The notes under the pieces are model-generated. The model made no database searches and was not told where the DNA came from. It was given only the letters and a program-made list of their open reading frames with translations. From an uncultured Methanobrevibacter sp. (GTDB taxonomy: Archaea > Methanobacteriota > Methanobacteria > Methanobacteriales > Methanobacteriaceae): 64,000 nt of DNA. The first letter of the stretch is position 1. Every line of letters starts with the position of its first letter. The position numbers were made by a program, and so were the translations under genes. Location of the stretch: assembly GCA_900314635.1 (NCBI GenBank), contig OMVY01000006.1, positions 1-64,000 of the forward strand, written 5' to 3'. Below are positions 16,247-55,745 of this stretch, in pieces.

Positions 16247-16795
16247 TTAATAACGATTATAAGTTCTCTCTAAAATATACTCAGCTCTTTCCTTGAGATT
16301 GTCATACAATCTGATTTGAGACTTGAGCTCTTCAATAGCTTCAGTCTGGCCCTGATCTATTCTTTTTTCAATGGCAAGCAGCTTGGACCATTCATCCCCT
16401 GAAGGCAGCTGTTTTATATTCATCATATCATCGCTGATTGCCACATTGAATGAATTTCTAGTGATGCTGATGGTTACATTCACATCATTAGGCATGTCGT
16501 AGTACTTTCTAGGTCGGCCCCTTACAACCTTTTTGAATGAGGATTCCAGTATGCCTATTTCTTCCATCGCTCTTAAATGTTCAATAATAGCTTTCTGACC
16601 GATTTGAAGCTCTTGAGATATTTCACTAACAAACCTAGGCTCTTCTCTCAGCAAGTCCATGATGTCACGCCTTGTCTTGCATCCCATCACATCAAGAATG
16701 GCTTCCATGTCAACCTCGTTTGCAGGACGCCCATTTATATCGGCATTGATGTTTCTATGGACATTCGGCCTGGTTATGCGATTATCTTCTTCCAT
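16247..16795 (-). CDS. Phr-like ArsR-family transcriptional regulator
   Basis: A 182-residue DNA-binding protein. Residues 28-110 form an ArsR-type winged helix: LDVMGCKTRRDIMDLL, FVSEISQELQIGQKAIIEHL (recognition region) and the wing VVRGRPRKYYDM. This pattern closely matches the archaeal heat shock regulator Phr of Pyrococcus as I remember it. The C-terminal part (residues 130-180) is helical, probably for dimerisation. There are no metal-binding cysteines of the ArsR/SmtB kind. GAGGCGG precedes the ATG. The grpE-dnaK-dnaJ genes start 1.8 kb away, and palindromes shared between its own upstream region and the grpE promoter suggest they are its target. Confidence 0.78.
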   Translation of the reverse strand: MEEDNRITRPNVHRNINADINGRPANEVDMEAILDVMGCKTRRDIMDLLREEPRFVSEISQELQIGQKAIIEHLRAMEEIGILESSFKKVVRGRPRKYYDMPNDVNVTISITRNSFNVAISDDMMNIKQLPSGDEWSKLLAIEKRIDQGQTEAIEELKSQIRLYDNLKERAEYILERTYNRY

Positions 16796-16927
16796 TTTAC
16801 CGCCTCTAATTAATTATAATAAGTAATAATTTATCAATTGAAAAACTTATAAAAACTAACTATTATTACGAGCATTTAAAAAATTATAAAACACCCTATA
16901 ATATTTTATAAGTCAATACTATTATAT

Positions 16928-16940
16928 TAACTTTTTGTTA
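16928..16940. promoter_or_regulatory. TAAC-N5-GTTA palindrome upstream of the Phr-like gene
   Basis: TAACTTTTTGTTA, identical to two of the three sites in front of grpE. It sits about 15 bases upstream of a minus-strand TATA-like element (CTTATAAAATA, about 16904-16914), which would give a leader of roughly 85 bases for the regulator. A weaker relative (TAACTATTATTAC, 16857-16869) lies closer to the gene. Confidence 0.55.
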
Positions 16941-17098
16941 GTAAACTAATACGATTGGGAATTAGCTTACAAATAATTTATGCAGACTAATTTTTAGGTT
17001 TTTCATCAAATTTACCAATTTTATTATGCACTAATGAATGCAGAAATTTAAATCCAATGCATTGAAAAAAAAGATTATTTAAAAATTGAAAAAAAGTG

Positions 17099-17191
17099 AA
17101 TATAATAATATTATATATAATAAGAATAAGTGAACTTTTTCAAGTTCTGAATGACAAGAAAATAATATAATAATATTATATATAATAAGAA
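17099..17191. repeat. pair of 28-base direct repeats
   Basis: AATATAATAATATTATATAT with eight more identical bases occurs at 17099-17126 and 17164-17191, 65 bases apart. It is centred on ATAATATTAT, so each copy is itself palindromic. The intervening stretch contains a small AACTTTTTCAAGTTC hairpin. The rest of this 567-base gap shows no gene. Confidence 0.75.
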
Positions 17192-17362
17192 GAACTGTTG
17201 TAAAATTTTATAGCAAATTCAAAAACCAAATGAAATAGCAGGATTAATTCCATAAAAAACACAGATTATTAATTATTTAGAAAAATAAAAAATTTTTATT
17301 GATTTATTTAGCATAAAATAAAAATACTATAATTTATATAGTTATCCACTCAATTATTAAAC

Positions 17363-17827
17363 ATGAAGCCAAAATATCTTTTTATAATATTGATTACATT
17401 GATTCTAGCAACCAGCGTAACCGCTGTTGCTGCTGGTGAAAGTGCCAGCATTAATGGCTGTAAATTCGAGATTCCGGATGGATTCGAAATATACAATCAA
17501 AGCTCCGATGTCATTGTCATCAATAACGATGACTTGGATGTCATAAGCATTTATGCACCTTCCCAGTCATTTACTGCTGATGAATTGAAGGAGGAGCTTA
17601 TCAAGCAGGGCTATACCTTCAAGGCCGAAGACACATCAGAATATGAAAACTCAGGTATCGAACTGACCACTCAGAACTTTGAGTATGAGAACATGTTTAT
17701 CATAACATACATATTCACAGTCGACGACCAGCTTGTTCAGATCACATTCATACCTCATGACAAGAACAATATTCCGGAATACGAGGACAACCCTGTCACA
17801 GACATAATAGATTCAATCATCTACTAA
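17363..17827 (+). CDS. small secreted protein of unknown function
   Basis: A 154-residue protein with a clear N-terminal signal peptide (MKPKYLFIILITLILATSVTA, likely cut near residue 25). The exported domain is about 130 residues, acidic, with the hydrophobic core of a small alpha/beta fold (FEIPDGFEIYNQSSD, then MFIITYIFTVDDQLVQITFI). No cysteine pair, lipobox or membrane anchor is present beyond the leader, so it is probably released or wall-associated. A TATA box (TTTATATAG, about 17333-17341) lies some 25 bases before the ATG with no ribosome binding site, which suggests a leaderless transcript. I do not recognise the family with confidence. Confidence 0.75.
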   Translation: MKPKYLFIILITLILATSVTAVAAGESASINGCKFEIPDGFEIYNQSSDVIVINNDDLDVISIYAPSQSFTADELKEELIKQGYTFKAEDTSEYENSGIELTTQNFEYENMFIITYIFTVDDQLVQITFIPHDKNNIPEYEDNPVTDIIDSIIY

Positions 17828-18056
17828 ATCATAAAATTTTTATTTTTTATAATTCTTTTTAAAAATTACATTCTTTTTTTTAAATTTTTTAAACCACCCC
17901 CACATATTGACAAAAGATAACATCCCCATTCTAAATTCCACAATCAAACAAAAATGTTCAATTTTATTTTCGATAGTTCATATTTTGACTATTTTAATTT
18001 TAAAAAAAGAAAGTATTTAAAGAGAAACAGAGTTTTACATAAACATAAGATTAAAT

Positions 18057-18069
18057 TAACTTTTTGTTA
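18057..18069. promoter_or_regulatory. grpE operator site 1
   Basis: TAACTTTTTGTTA, a perfect TAAC-N5-GTTA palindrome, 16 bases upstream of the grpE TATA box. It fits the T-N2-C-N5-G-N2-A core I associate with Phr-type heat shock operators. Confidence 0.6.
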
Positions 18070-18084
18070 CTAAAAACCGAAATC

Positions 18085-18092
18085 TTTATATA
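18085..18092 (+). promoter_or_regulatory. TATA box of the grpE-dnaK transcript
   Basis: TTTATATA is the best archaeal TATA box in the 731-base gap before grpE and sits between the palindromic sites. Transcription would begin near 18112 to 18116, giving a leader of about 440 bases. Confidence 0.6.
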
Positions 18093-18103
18093 ACAAATGG
18101 TTA
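18091..18103. promoter_or_regulatory. grpE operator site 2, overlapping the TATA box edge
   Basis: TAACAAATGGTTA, the same TAAC-N5-GTTA palindrome with a different spacer. It begins on the last bases of the TATA box, so a protein bound here would block TBP/TFB or RNA polymerase. Confidence 0.6.
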
Positions 18104-18125
18104 CTATAATAAGTATAGAGAAAGA

Positions 18126-18138
18126 TAACTTTTTGTTA
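18126..18138. promoter_or_regulatory. grpE operator site 3
   Basis: TAACTTTTTGTTA again, just downstream of the predicted transcription start. Sites 1, 2 and 3 begin 34 and 35 bases apart. Confidence 0.6.
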
Positions 18139-18141
18139 CTT

Positions 18142-18468
18142 TAATAATTCTGGCAAGATAAAATTAAAATCCTAGAATATTAAAACTCTAAAAGTTTTAA
18201 ACTTATGATAAAATGAAATATTTTGAATCTAATCAAAATAAACTTCTTTTATCATCAAAATGTCTCAACACAAATCAAAAAAAGGACACAACACGGCAAG
18301 TCAAAGAGCATATTTCAAATCCTCTTTAAAATCACACTATAAATAAAAATCAAGCACACCTGATTTTTATCTAAGATAAAACATCTCAAATATTCTATAA
18401 CCCATAAATAGAAAAAATAAAATTTTCTCTTTGATTTGAGCCAGAATATTAAAGGAGCGGGTCGCTCT
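18142..18468 (+). ncRNA. candidate structured RNA in the grpE 5' leader
   Basis: Two distant segments, TAATAATTCTGGC (18142-18154) and GCCAGAATATTA (18441-18452), pair over 12 base pairs with one bulge and close a domain of about 310 bases. Inside are ordered hairpins: 18181-18199 (7 bp), 18205-18255 (9 + 3 + 6 bp, nested), 18303-18327 (6 bp), 18343-18370 (10 bp perfect, loop AGCACACC), 18395-18411 and 18411-18428. A last hairpin GAGCG-GGT-CGCTC lies at 18456-18468. The region is A+T-rich, so some pairing is expected by chance, and a 38-codon ORF (18213-18329) without a ribosome binding site overlaps it. Confidence 0.35.
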
Positions 18469-18558
18469 CTTTCTCTAAACATTAATAATTCTTATTAAAC
18501 GAGTGAGATTAATAATAATTATTAGTTAAATCAATCCGTTAAAACTCAAGGTGATGGA

Positions 18559-19137
18559 ATGGCTAAGGAAAACTTAAAAGAAAAATCTGAAGAAAAATCT
18601 TCCAAAGAGGAGAAAGTCTCCAAAGATGAAGAATCTTCAGAAGATCTTATAAGTGAAGACTCCACTTCAGAAGAAGATGAATTAGCTAAATTAGAAGATG
18701 AGCTTAAAGCAAAAGAGGAAGTCATTCTAGAACTTACATCCCATATTCAAAGGCTTCAAGCAGACTTTGACAACTTTAGAAAACAGACAGAAAAGCACAA
18801 CAGGAATTTAGTGGAATTCGCTAATGAAGGTCTGATTCTTAAATTCATAGACAGCTATGAAGACATGGGAAGGGTTCTTGAAAACTCAAAAACCAAAGAA
18901 GACCTTGAAGAAGGCTTCAAGTTGATTTATTCAAAAATGCAGAACACATTGGAAAATGAAGGGCTCAAGGAGATTCCAACTGTCGGTGAAAAGTTCGATC
19001 CATTCGTTCATGAAGCTCAGGGAACTATAAACAGCCCTAATCATGAAGATAAGGAAATTGTCGCTGAAATCATGAAAGGATACACCTTAAAAGACAAGAT
19101 AATTAAAAATCCAATTGTGATTGTGTGCAAGAAATAA
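18559..19137 (+). CDS. grpE: nucleotide exchange factor GrpE
   Basis: A 192-residue GrpE. Residues 1-60 are an acidic, Lys/Glu/Ser-rich disordered tail. A long coiled-coil helix follows (about 45-110, ITSHIQRLQADFDNFRKQTEKHN), then the beta-domain with VGEKFDPFVHEAQGTI and the end KDKIIKNPIVIVCKK. It releases ADP from DnaK. AAGGTGATGGA precedes the ATG. It is the first gene of the chaperone cluster and is transcribed behind the triple palindrome. Bacterial-type GrpE-DnaK-DnaJ systems in mesophilic archaea are generally regarded as acquired from bacteria. Confidence 0.95.
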   Translation: MAKENLKEKSEEKSSKEEKVSKDEESSEDLISEDSTSEEDELAKLEDELKAKEEVILELTSHIQRLQADFDNFRKQTEKHNRNLVEFANEGLILKFIDSYEDMGRVLENSKTKEDLEEGFKLIYSKMQNTLENEGLKEIPTVGEKFDPFVHEAQGTINSPNHEDKEIVAEIMKGYTLKDKIIKNPIVIVCKK

Positions 19138-19272
19138 GATGATGTTTTAAGTCGTTAATTTAACTATTCAAATCATGTTTATTTTATAATAAAAATTAGA
19201 AGCTGATTTAAAGCTTCAAAGAATTTAAAAAAATTAAAAAAAATCAAAAATTAAAAAATCAAGGTGAATATT

Positions 19273-21144
19273 ATGTCTGATGATACTAAAAAAGAAAAAA
19301 TAATCGGTATCGACCTCGGTACCAGTAACTCTGCAGCAAGTGTACTCATTGGTGGTAAACCAACCGTTATTCCAAGTGCTGAAGGTGCAAGCCAGTATGG
19401 TAAGGCTTTCCCAAGTTATGTTGCATACACTGAAGACGGTCAGAGATTAGTTGGAGAACCTGCAAGAAGACAGGCAGTAACCAACCCTGAAAACACTATC
19501 AGCGCATTCAAAAGAAGCATGGGTACAGATAGAAAATTCAGCATCCAGGGCAAACAGTACAGCCCTCAGGAAATCTCAGCAGCATTACTCCAAAAAATCA
19601 AGAAAGATGCAGAATCCTTCCTTGGAGAACCTGTTGAAAAAGCTGTAATCACTGTTCCTGCTTACTTCGACGACAACCAGAGAACTGCAACCAAGGATGC
19701 AGGTACAATTGCAGGCCTGGATGTTGTAAGACTCGTAAACGAACCTACTGCAGCAAGTCTTGCATATGGTATAGACAAGCAATCCGATGATGACATCAAC
19801 ATTCTCGTATTCGATTTAGGAGGAGGTACTTTAGACGTAACCATCATGGAATTCGGTGATGGAGTATTTGAAGTACAATCCACAAGCGGTGATACCCAGT
19901 TAGGTGGTACCGATATGGACAACGCAATTCTCAAATATCTTGCTGACGAATTCAAGAAAACCGACGGCATCGACCTCATGGAAGACGATCAGGCAGTTCA
20001 AAGATTAAGAGAAGCAGCTGAAAAAGCAAAAATCGAATTATCAAGCACCTTGACCAGTCAGGTCAACCTGCCTTTCATCAGCATGGGCGCAGATGGAAAA
20101 CCTCACAACTTAATCAACGATTTAAGCAGAGCAAAACTGGAAGAACTTGTCGACCCAATCGTCAAGAAATGTGGTACTCCAATCAAACAGGCATTAGACG
20201 ATGCAAAAATGACTAGAGATGACATTGATAAGATCATCCTCGTAGGTGGACCTACCAGAATGCCATGTGTACAAAAATTCGTAGAAGACTACATCGGCAA
20301 GAACGTCGAAAGAGGAATCGACCCAATGGAATGTGTAGCAATGGGTGCTGCAATCCAAGGTGGAGTTCTCGCTGGAGAAATCAAGGACCTCGTTCTTTTA
20401 GATGTAACTCCTTTATCCTTAGGTATTGAAACCTTAGGAGGAATCAGCACAACCCTGATTGAAAGGAACACTACAATTCCTGCTAAAAAATCACAAATCT
20501 TCTCAACCGCAGCTGACAACCAGCCTTCAGTAGACATTCACGTTGTACAAGGAGAACGTAAGATGGCAGCAGACAACACCACCCTTGGAAGATTCCAACT
20601 GGTCGGAATACCTCCTGCACCAAGAGGAATGCCTCAAATTGAAGTTACCTTCGATATTGACGCAAACGGTATCATCAATGTATCTGCACAAGACAAGGGA
20701 ACAGGCAAGGAACAGTCCATCACAATCACATCAAGCACAAAATTATCCGATGAGGAAATTGAAAAGGCTGTAAAAGAAGCTGAAATGAACGCTGAAGCAG
20801 ACAAGAAGAAAACCGAGGAAATCGAAGTCAGAAACAATGCAGATTCCATGATTTACACATCCGAGAAGACTCTCGACGAACTTGGCGACAAGGTCACTGC
20901 TGATGAGAAATCCAGCGTTGAAGAGAAAGTTGCAGAACTTAGAGAATTAATCAGCGGCGATGACATCGCAGCCATCAAGGAAAAAACCGATGACTTGAGC
21001 AAAGTAGTCCAGGACATCGGCGCTAGAATCTACCAGCAGGCAGCAGCAGAGCAGCAAGCTGCTCAACAAGCTCAAGATGCTGGTGCAGACAACTCTTCAA
21101 ACGATGATGACGGAACCATCGATGCTGAATTCGAAGAAAAATAA
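19273..21144 (+). CDS. dnaK: molecular chaperone DnaK (Hsp70)
   Basis: A 623-residue Hsp70. ATPase domain motifs: [15 protein letters not shown] near residue 9, [20 protein letters not shown] near 125, [15 protein letters not shown] near 180 and [13 protein letters not shown] near 315. The substrate-binding domain starts after [16 protein letters not shown] (about 375), and the acidic C-terminal end [13 protein letters not shown] is typical of the DnaK tail that binds clients. I choose the ATG at 19273 because AAGGTGA (19261-19267) is its ribosome binding site; the upstream in-frame GTG lies inside that site. It follows grpE by 135 bases and is probably co-transcribed. Two hairpins downstream may end or attenuate the transcript before dnaJ. 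Confidence 0.97.
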
Positions 21145-21339: not shown

Positions 21340-21663
21340 TATGATTTAATTAATATTTGAAAATAATTTTAAATATTAAAAAGACAATAATTAAATTAGT
21401 GAATAAAATTAATTATTCCTAGTTTTTTATTTAAATCAAATTTACTAAATTGCTTTTTTTAAAAGATTTAAAATCCATTTTCTAATGTTTGTTAATTAGC
21501 AATTCAACACATATCAAAAGATATAAGATTATATAAAAATAATTCATGAGTTAGAAACAATAATAATTTGAATGTTCAAGATAATTTAAAATTTAAATAA
21601 ATAAGAATTGGATTAAGGAAAAAAGCAGTTATTATAATAATTATTCTATTAAAGGTGACTAAA

Positions 21664-22836
21664 TTGCCAGAAAAGCGCGACTATTATGAAGTTCTTGGAG
21701 TAGATAAGACAGCTACTGACAAGGAAATTAAAAAGGCTTACCGTAAGCTAGCTAGAAAATATCACCCTGACGTTGTAGGAGAGGATGAAAAAGAGGAAGC
21801 CACTGAAAAATTCAAGGAAATAAGTGAAGCCTACGCTGTTTTATCCGATGAAGACAAAAGGCATAGATACGATCAATTCGGCCATGCAGGTATGGAAGGC
21901 TTCTCTCAAGAGGACATATTCAGAAACGTCAACTTCGAAGATATTTTCCAAGGCTTCGGCGGCGGAGGCTTAGACGATATATTTGACATGTTTGGATTTG
22001 GCTCAGGTAGCAGATCCAGAAGACAAGGCCCTAGAAGAGGCGGAGATATTTACACAGACATTACAATCACATTGGAAGAAGCGGCCAGCGGTGTTGAAAA
22101 GGACATAAAAGTAAGGCATGATGTATTCTGTCCTGTATGTGAAGGAAGCCGTGCCGAGCCTGGATCAGATGTTGAAACTTGTCCTACCTGTGGAGGTACA
22201 GGACAGAGAAAACAAATCCGCAACAGCCTTTTCGGTCAGGTAGTAAACATAGTTCAATGTGGAGAATGTGGCGGAACTGGTAAGATCATCAAGGAGCCAT
22301 GTCACAACTGTCATGGAAGAGGAAGCGTCAAAGAGGAGAAGACCATCAGCATCAAGGTCCCAGCAGGAGTTGAAACCGGAAACAGGCTCAGAGTCTCAGG
22401 AGAAGGCCATGTTGGAGATGTTGGCGGTGGAAAAGGAGATTTGTATGTTGAGATAAATGTCCAGAAGCACCTTGACTTTGAAAGGGAAGGAGCAAACCTC
22501 TACTATGAAAAGCAGATCAGTTTCCCTCAGGCAAGCCTTGGAGATACCGTTGAAATTCCAACCATCGACGGCAAAGTGGATTTGAAGATTCCGCCAGGAA
22601 CCCAGAGCGGAACAGTATTCAGATTAAAGGAAAAGGGAATGCCTCAAATGAGACGCAGCAACAAGGGAAATCTTTATGTTACCATTACTGTCGTAGTTCC
22701 TCAAAAACTGAACAAGGAGCAGACAAAACTGCTTAGAAAATTCGCTGAAATCAGCGGAGAAGAAATCAGTGTTTACAAGAAGGGACTCTTTGACAAGGTA
22801 AGAGATGGAATAAACAATCTTCTGCTTGTTAAATAA
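21664..22836 (+). CDS. dnaJ: chaperone DnaJ (Hsp40, type I)
   Basis: A 390-residue type I DnaJ: J domain with HPD at residues 34-36, Gly/Phe region ([20 protein letters not shown], about 100-120), four zinc-binding repeats (CPVCEGS, CPTCGGT, CGECGGT, CHNCHGR) and the C-terminal client-binding domain. It recruits clients to DnaK and stimulates its ATPase. The start is most likely the TTG at 21664 ([12 protein letters not shown]), because GGTGAC (21654-21659) is a ribosome binding site at the right distance, and the in-frame GTG at 21655 lies within it. It is separated from dnaK by two terminator-like hairpins, so it may also be transcribed alone. Confidence 0.95.

Positions 22837-54201: not shown

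Positions 54202-55745
<1,544 letters not shown>

Follow-up and report, generated by a model that had tools for sequence, protein, structure and literature searches.

Putative Phr/HSR1-type operators and a predicted structured leader RNA at the grpE-dnaK promoter of a Methanobrevibacter

The window, i.e., the whole stretch of 64,000 nucleotides that was analysed, harbors a phr-like gene (16247–16795, minus strand) and, divergent from it on the plus strand, grpE (18559–19137; Pfam GrpE, E = 1e-34) and dnaK (19264–21144; Pfam HSP70, E = 5e-228), followed by dnaJ (21655–22836; Pfam DnaJ domains). The phr-like gene encodes a winged-helix regulator of the ArsR family with 182 amino acids. Its best relative in the PDB is the Phr structure itself (2p4w, E = 5.5e-24, residues 30–169), and it matches the NCBIfam model Phr_regulator (NF053602) with 97.6 bits (E = 6.3e-28), under that model's narrow exception cut-off of 320. 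In the region of the recognition helix, GQKAIIEHLR, the regulator is a close match to the Pyrococcus protein, and an alignment of 20 relatives shows this region to be largely invariant. The predicted structure of the regulator is poor (pLDDT 56, pTM 0.27). The protein is a clear winged-helix homologue of Pyrococcus Phr, as the original prediction had proposed, and its gene adjoins grpE in nearly all genera of the family.

Between the two genes lie palindromes with the sequence TAAC-N5-GTTA. Exact matches are found at all four positions originally named: site 1 (18057–18069), site 2 (18091–18103) and site 3 (18126–18138), which start 34 and 35 bp apart, and a fourth palindrome at 16928–16940. 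A lone fifth copy lies at 55276. The fourth palindrome had been described as identical to the rest, which is true of sites 1 and 3 (all three are TAACTTTTTGTTA, with the spacer TTTTT) but not of the middle site, TAACAAATGGTTA, whose spacer is AAATG. The array sites are palindromes of the CTAAC-N5-GTTAG or T-N2-C-N5-G-N2-A type, the latter being the form of the Phr motif. Site 1 is located upstream of a BRE-like CCGAAA (18077–18082), which together with the TATA box TTTATATA (18085–18092) makes up the grpE core promoter (18077–18092, plus strand); site 2 abuts this TATA box. Judging from the position of the TATA box, the grpE transcript would start near 18112, and site 3 would therefore lie about 13–26 nt into it. 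The 5 copies in the window compare with 0.73 expected, and at least 5 were reached in 0 of 100 window shuffles. Genome-wide, the bare motif shows no enrichment (24 places in 2.29 Mb vs. about 26 extrapolated from the chance rate in the window). At this chance frequency, what gives the motif its significance is that the copies at this locus cluster and are conserved.

Conservation was assessed in 89 distinct grpE upstream regions from Methanobacteriales, with 1780 dinucleotide shuffles as the control. At least one TWAC-N5-GTWA site occurs in 89/89 regions vs. 6.1% of the shuffles, and a pair of such sites 33–41 bp apart in 87/89 vs. 0/1780; related sequences in these counts are not independent observations. 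Of the 87 pairs, 85 have their first site fused to the TATA box TTTATATA. With capitals for positions conserved in at least 90%, the consensus of this site A is CGAAA..TTTATATAAC.TTTtGTtAcTATAAtA and that of site B is gagAaAgaTAACtTTTtGTtACTTTAATa. In nearly all genera the array sits in the shared divergent region between phr and grpE. The pair is also present in Methanothermobacter-type genomes (family f3), with a gap of 36–37 bp, where phr and grpE are only 111–127 bp apart. In one genome (G008) there are two separate phr-grpE loci (L038 and L087), and both have an operator pair (gaps of 41 and 37 bp). Since the sites are spread over several families, shared inertia is inadequate as an explanation. 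The conservation test had been set beforehand, and the expectation that the palindromes persist in related strains was upheld across the order. Chance palindromes in AT-rich DNA would account for the genome-wide number of 24 and for a copy on contig C6 (C6:17947) that is not conserved in relatives, but order-wide positional conservation of a kind seen in 0/1780 shuffles refutes a chance origin of sites 1–3 and of the palindrome at 16928, to which we give next to no probability.

The regular spacing, near 3.3 helical turns, had been taken to suggest cooperative binding by several dimers. In this explanation, the sites form a helically phased repressor array whose dimers would be spaced by about 3.3 turns along looped or stacked DNA. 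The array is present in 10/10 members of the genus in the first set, with a pitch of exactly 34/35 bp in most, and 35 bp is the commonest gap among the core pairs (52/87). However, the whole block of about 100 bp is nearly invariant within the genus, so that the fixed spacing is not independent evidence, and at distances of 34 and 35 bp neighbouring sites miss a common helical face by about a third of a turn. The core gap can also be 33, 34, 36, 37, 39, 40 or 41 bp, and Methanosphaera-like genomes (g3) show 34–45 and 75–79 bp. With the two core sites between 33 and 41 bp apart across the order, the helical phase is not what is conserved; the claim about spacing is not supported as stated, and a phased array appears unlikely.

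Read from the sequences, the core of the array is the old grpE pair A and B, here sites 2 and 3. For site 1, the best explanation is an operator that serves the divergent phr promoter. In relatives from the genus, a TATA-like TATTATAT lies on the phr side of site 1, as TATTATAT-TAAC in most of them, and the start of the phr match is only 38–183 bp from the site. In the window species, the corresponding phr TATA element (16920–16927, minus strand; TATTATAT on the plus strand) would abut the palindrome at 16928, and an insertion of about 1.1 kb (16941–18056) separates this palindrome from site 1. Compared with the site 1 consensus of the relatives, the flanks of the 16928 palindrome match at 14/20 positions on the phr side and 6/20 on the grpE side, and those of the 18057 palindrome at 20/20 on the grpE side and 7/20 on the phr side. 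Because each keeps one matching flank, the two can be recognised as halves of a split site 1: judged by the flanks, the insertion duplicated and split this site, leaving the phr half as the fourth palindrome and the grpE-side half at 18057. An extra site on the phr side is also present in Methanobrevibacter filiformis (L025) and in L026, where the genes are further apart too. In genus g4, phr and grpE are unlinked. Its grpE regions keep three sites 33–34 bp apart (5/5 read); its phr has its own TAACAAAAAGTTA beside a TATA box, as operator-TTATATAAAT just upstream, in 3/6 genomes, and no recognisable site was found upstream of phr in 3/6.

The insertion itself contains an ORF of 154 amino acids (17363–17827, plus strand), a small putative secreted protein for which a Pfam search gave no match. 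It belongs to a multi-copy family of the lineage, often in tandem, with scattered paralogues in 17/60 genomes. A direct repeat, AATATAATAATATTATATATAATAAG, is also present in the insertion, with two copies about 65 bp apart (17098–17192).

In bacteria, the CIRCE/HrcA system controls the dnaK and groE operons. The locus described here resembles it in having an inverted-repeat operator at a chaperone promoter and a repressor gene beside grpE-dnaK, but motif and regulator family are unrelated and the promoter is of the archaeal TATA/BRE type. To our knowledge, Pyrococcus has no grpE-dnaK operon. Only two archaeal heat-shock regulators, Phr and HSR1, are named in PMC9133787. For HSR1 of Archaeoglobus fulgidus, the bound sequence is CTAAC-N5-GTTAG, located upstream of the gene for HSR1 (PMC9133787). 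The sites in the window share this palindrome core with its N5 spacer, and both systems have a site upstream of the gene for the regulator and a heat-shock target nearby, although the HSR1 target is hsp20 in the operon of the regulator rather than a divergent grpE-dnaK, no array of two or three sites is described in PMC9133787, and the comparison is one of motif and site position. Phr of Pyrococcus furiosus (2p4w), to which the regulator is homologous over residues 30–169, likewise represses heat-shock genes and itself from an operator at the core promoter; it covers 29 bp centred on the start site, with the elements TTTA, TGGTAA and AAAA, and blocks RNA polymerase (PMC9133787). In contrast, the sites described here have the core TAAC-N5-GTTA and flank the predicted start, and a strict Pyrococcus Phr site was rejected.

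Taken as operators of the Phr kind, as originally proposed, the palindromes are supported, with a motif closer to the published HSR1 site than to that of Phr (PMC9133787). One of them abuts the TATA box of grpE-dnaK, at the core promoter of a heat-shock gene, and the one at 16928 abuts a TATA-like element conserved in relatives, which by position places it at the promoter of the regulator itself. We put the probability that they serve as operators of the adjacent Phr/HSR1-type repressor, controlling grpE-dnaK and phr itself, at roughly 85%. With dimers sitting next to the TATA box (site 2) and just past the start (site 3), the transcription machinery would be kept from assembling on grpE-dnaK, and phr would be repressed by a dimer at its own operator (ancestrally site 1, now 16928). 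Heat stress would release the repressor and permit expression of the chaperone operon, in line with what PMC9133787 reports for Phr and HSR1. The rhythm of 34/35 bp would then reflect a back-to-back row of three operators, one for phr and two for grpE, each with a footprint of about 29 bp and a gap of 5–6 bp; by arithmetic, not measurement, footprints of 29 bp spaced in this way would cover the core promoter from end to end. The array thus appears to be a well-supported case of a Phr/HSR1 heat-shock operator in a new arrangement, i.e., with multiple sites and on a DnaK operon. A literature search that reached few subscription papers found no paper on the grpE promoter or leader.

A genome-wide search revealed no convincing TATA-fused operators elsewhere. 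The copy at C6:17947 (genome G000, locus L001) is an identical TAACTTTTTGTTA upstream of a gene for 127 amino acids. As orthologues do not conserve this copy, the existence of a wider Phr regulon in the window species is unsupported.

Downstream of the promoter, grpE is preceded by a predicted structured 5′ leader RNA of about 450 nt (18112–18558, plus strand, the start being set by the TATA position). The fold over 18112–18600 has a minimum free energy of -98.9 kcal/mol (z = -6.98), and the leaders of genus relatives have z values from -1.8 to -9.9. The helices, all on the plus strand, are P1 (AGAGAAAGA, 18117–18125, with TCTTTCTCT, 18468–18476; paired in 98.4% of cells), P2 (CTTTAATAATTCTGGC, 18139–18154, with GCCAGAATATTAAAG, 18440–18454), P3 (18299–18307 with 18428–18436) and the hairpin P4 (GAGC/GCTC, 18455–18467; 98.2% of cells paired). 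Pairing in P2, CTTTAATA..CTGGC/GCCAG..TATTAAAG, is accompanied by compensatory changes (C-G / U-A / A-U at one position, G-C / A-U at another), and in P3 both sides have changed in 3/9 pairs. Across 14 members of the genus, 91.5% of the cells of P1–P4 are paired vs. 45–54% when slid by 1–3 columns; 6 pairs have changed on both sides, and the covariation score was reached in 0/500 shuffles. P2, which RNAalifold alone missed in the genus alignment, emerged from direct counts of duplexes and pairs. Near-invariant TCCTCTT..AAAATCACACTATAA, apparently unpaired, occurs at 18319–18342 and in the leaders of genus relatives (alignment A2, columns 243–266).

In clade g5 (millerae/thaueri-like, 39 sequences), the leader is shorter, retains P1 and P2 and has in addition a second long helix, which runs across these two (92.6% paired, 6 double-changed pairs, score reached in 0/500 shuffles); the crossing helices therefore imply a pseudoknot or two alternative folds. 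The g5 leaders (alignment A1; e.g., L132:2732–2928) also contain a near-invariant, mostly unpaired and non-coding block, TGAACCATTTTCCTATATGTCCATAAATTCC, which is perhaps a contact site for protein or RNA. P2 is not significant in genera g15, g17, g4, g10 and part of g16, and there is no room for it in the leaders of Methanothermobacter-like and g18 genomes, which measure only 17–40 nt.

In the predicted fold, site 3 itself forms a hairpin, AAC-N5-GUU, flanked by helices P1 and P2, and with the folding z value of -6.98 and the covariation score reached in 0/500 shuffles it could be argued that the site is kept mainly as the 5′ hairpin of the leader RNA, not as an operator. This is improbable: the second site is retained despite leaders of 17–40 nt in the Methanothermobacter-like and g18 genomes, and its motif and the following ACT(A/T)(T/A)AATA resemble those of site 2. 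Since the leader helices overlap site 3, part of its conservation may nevertheless reflect the RNA instead of a bound protein, beside its putative role as a grpE operator.

The leader element occurs as a single copy in the genome of the window. An Rfam search with the window and six relatives gave no credible match at E ≤ 1; the best match, preQ1-II (30.9 bits), falls below its gathering score of 47 and was rejected. Folding of the leader predicted no consistent opening of the ribosome site between 30 and 48 °C and so gave no consistent signal of an RNA thermometer that would act by melting at this site. The leader may be a new cis-regulatory RNA. A fuller proposal, at somewhat under even odds, is that it represents an undescribed RNA family of Methanobrevibacter-type methanogens that would add RNA-level control on top of Phr, with a pseudoknot or two-state switch in g5 and the Phr operator embedded in the first hairpin.

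Archaeal heat-shock control has been described for very few regulators. By sequence evidence, the conserved array extends control of the Phr/HSR1 type to the bacterial-type DnaK chaperone operon across Methanobacteriales, an extension that takes in methanogens of the rumen and gut, not thermophiles. It provides an exact, testable operator map together with natural experiments, namely the operator split after an insertion and the unlinked genes of g4. The structured leader overlapping site 3 is the most novel part and, if functional, would be an RNA element of an archaeal stress gene without a described relative.
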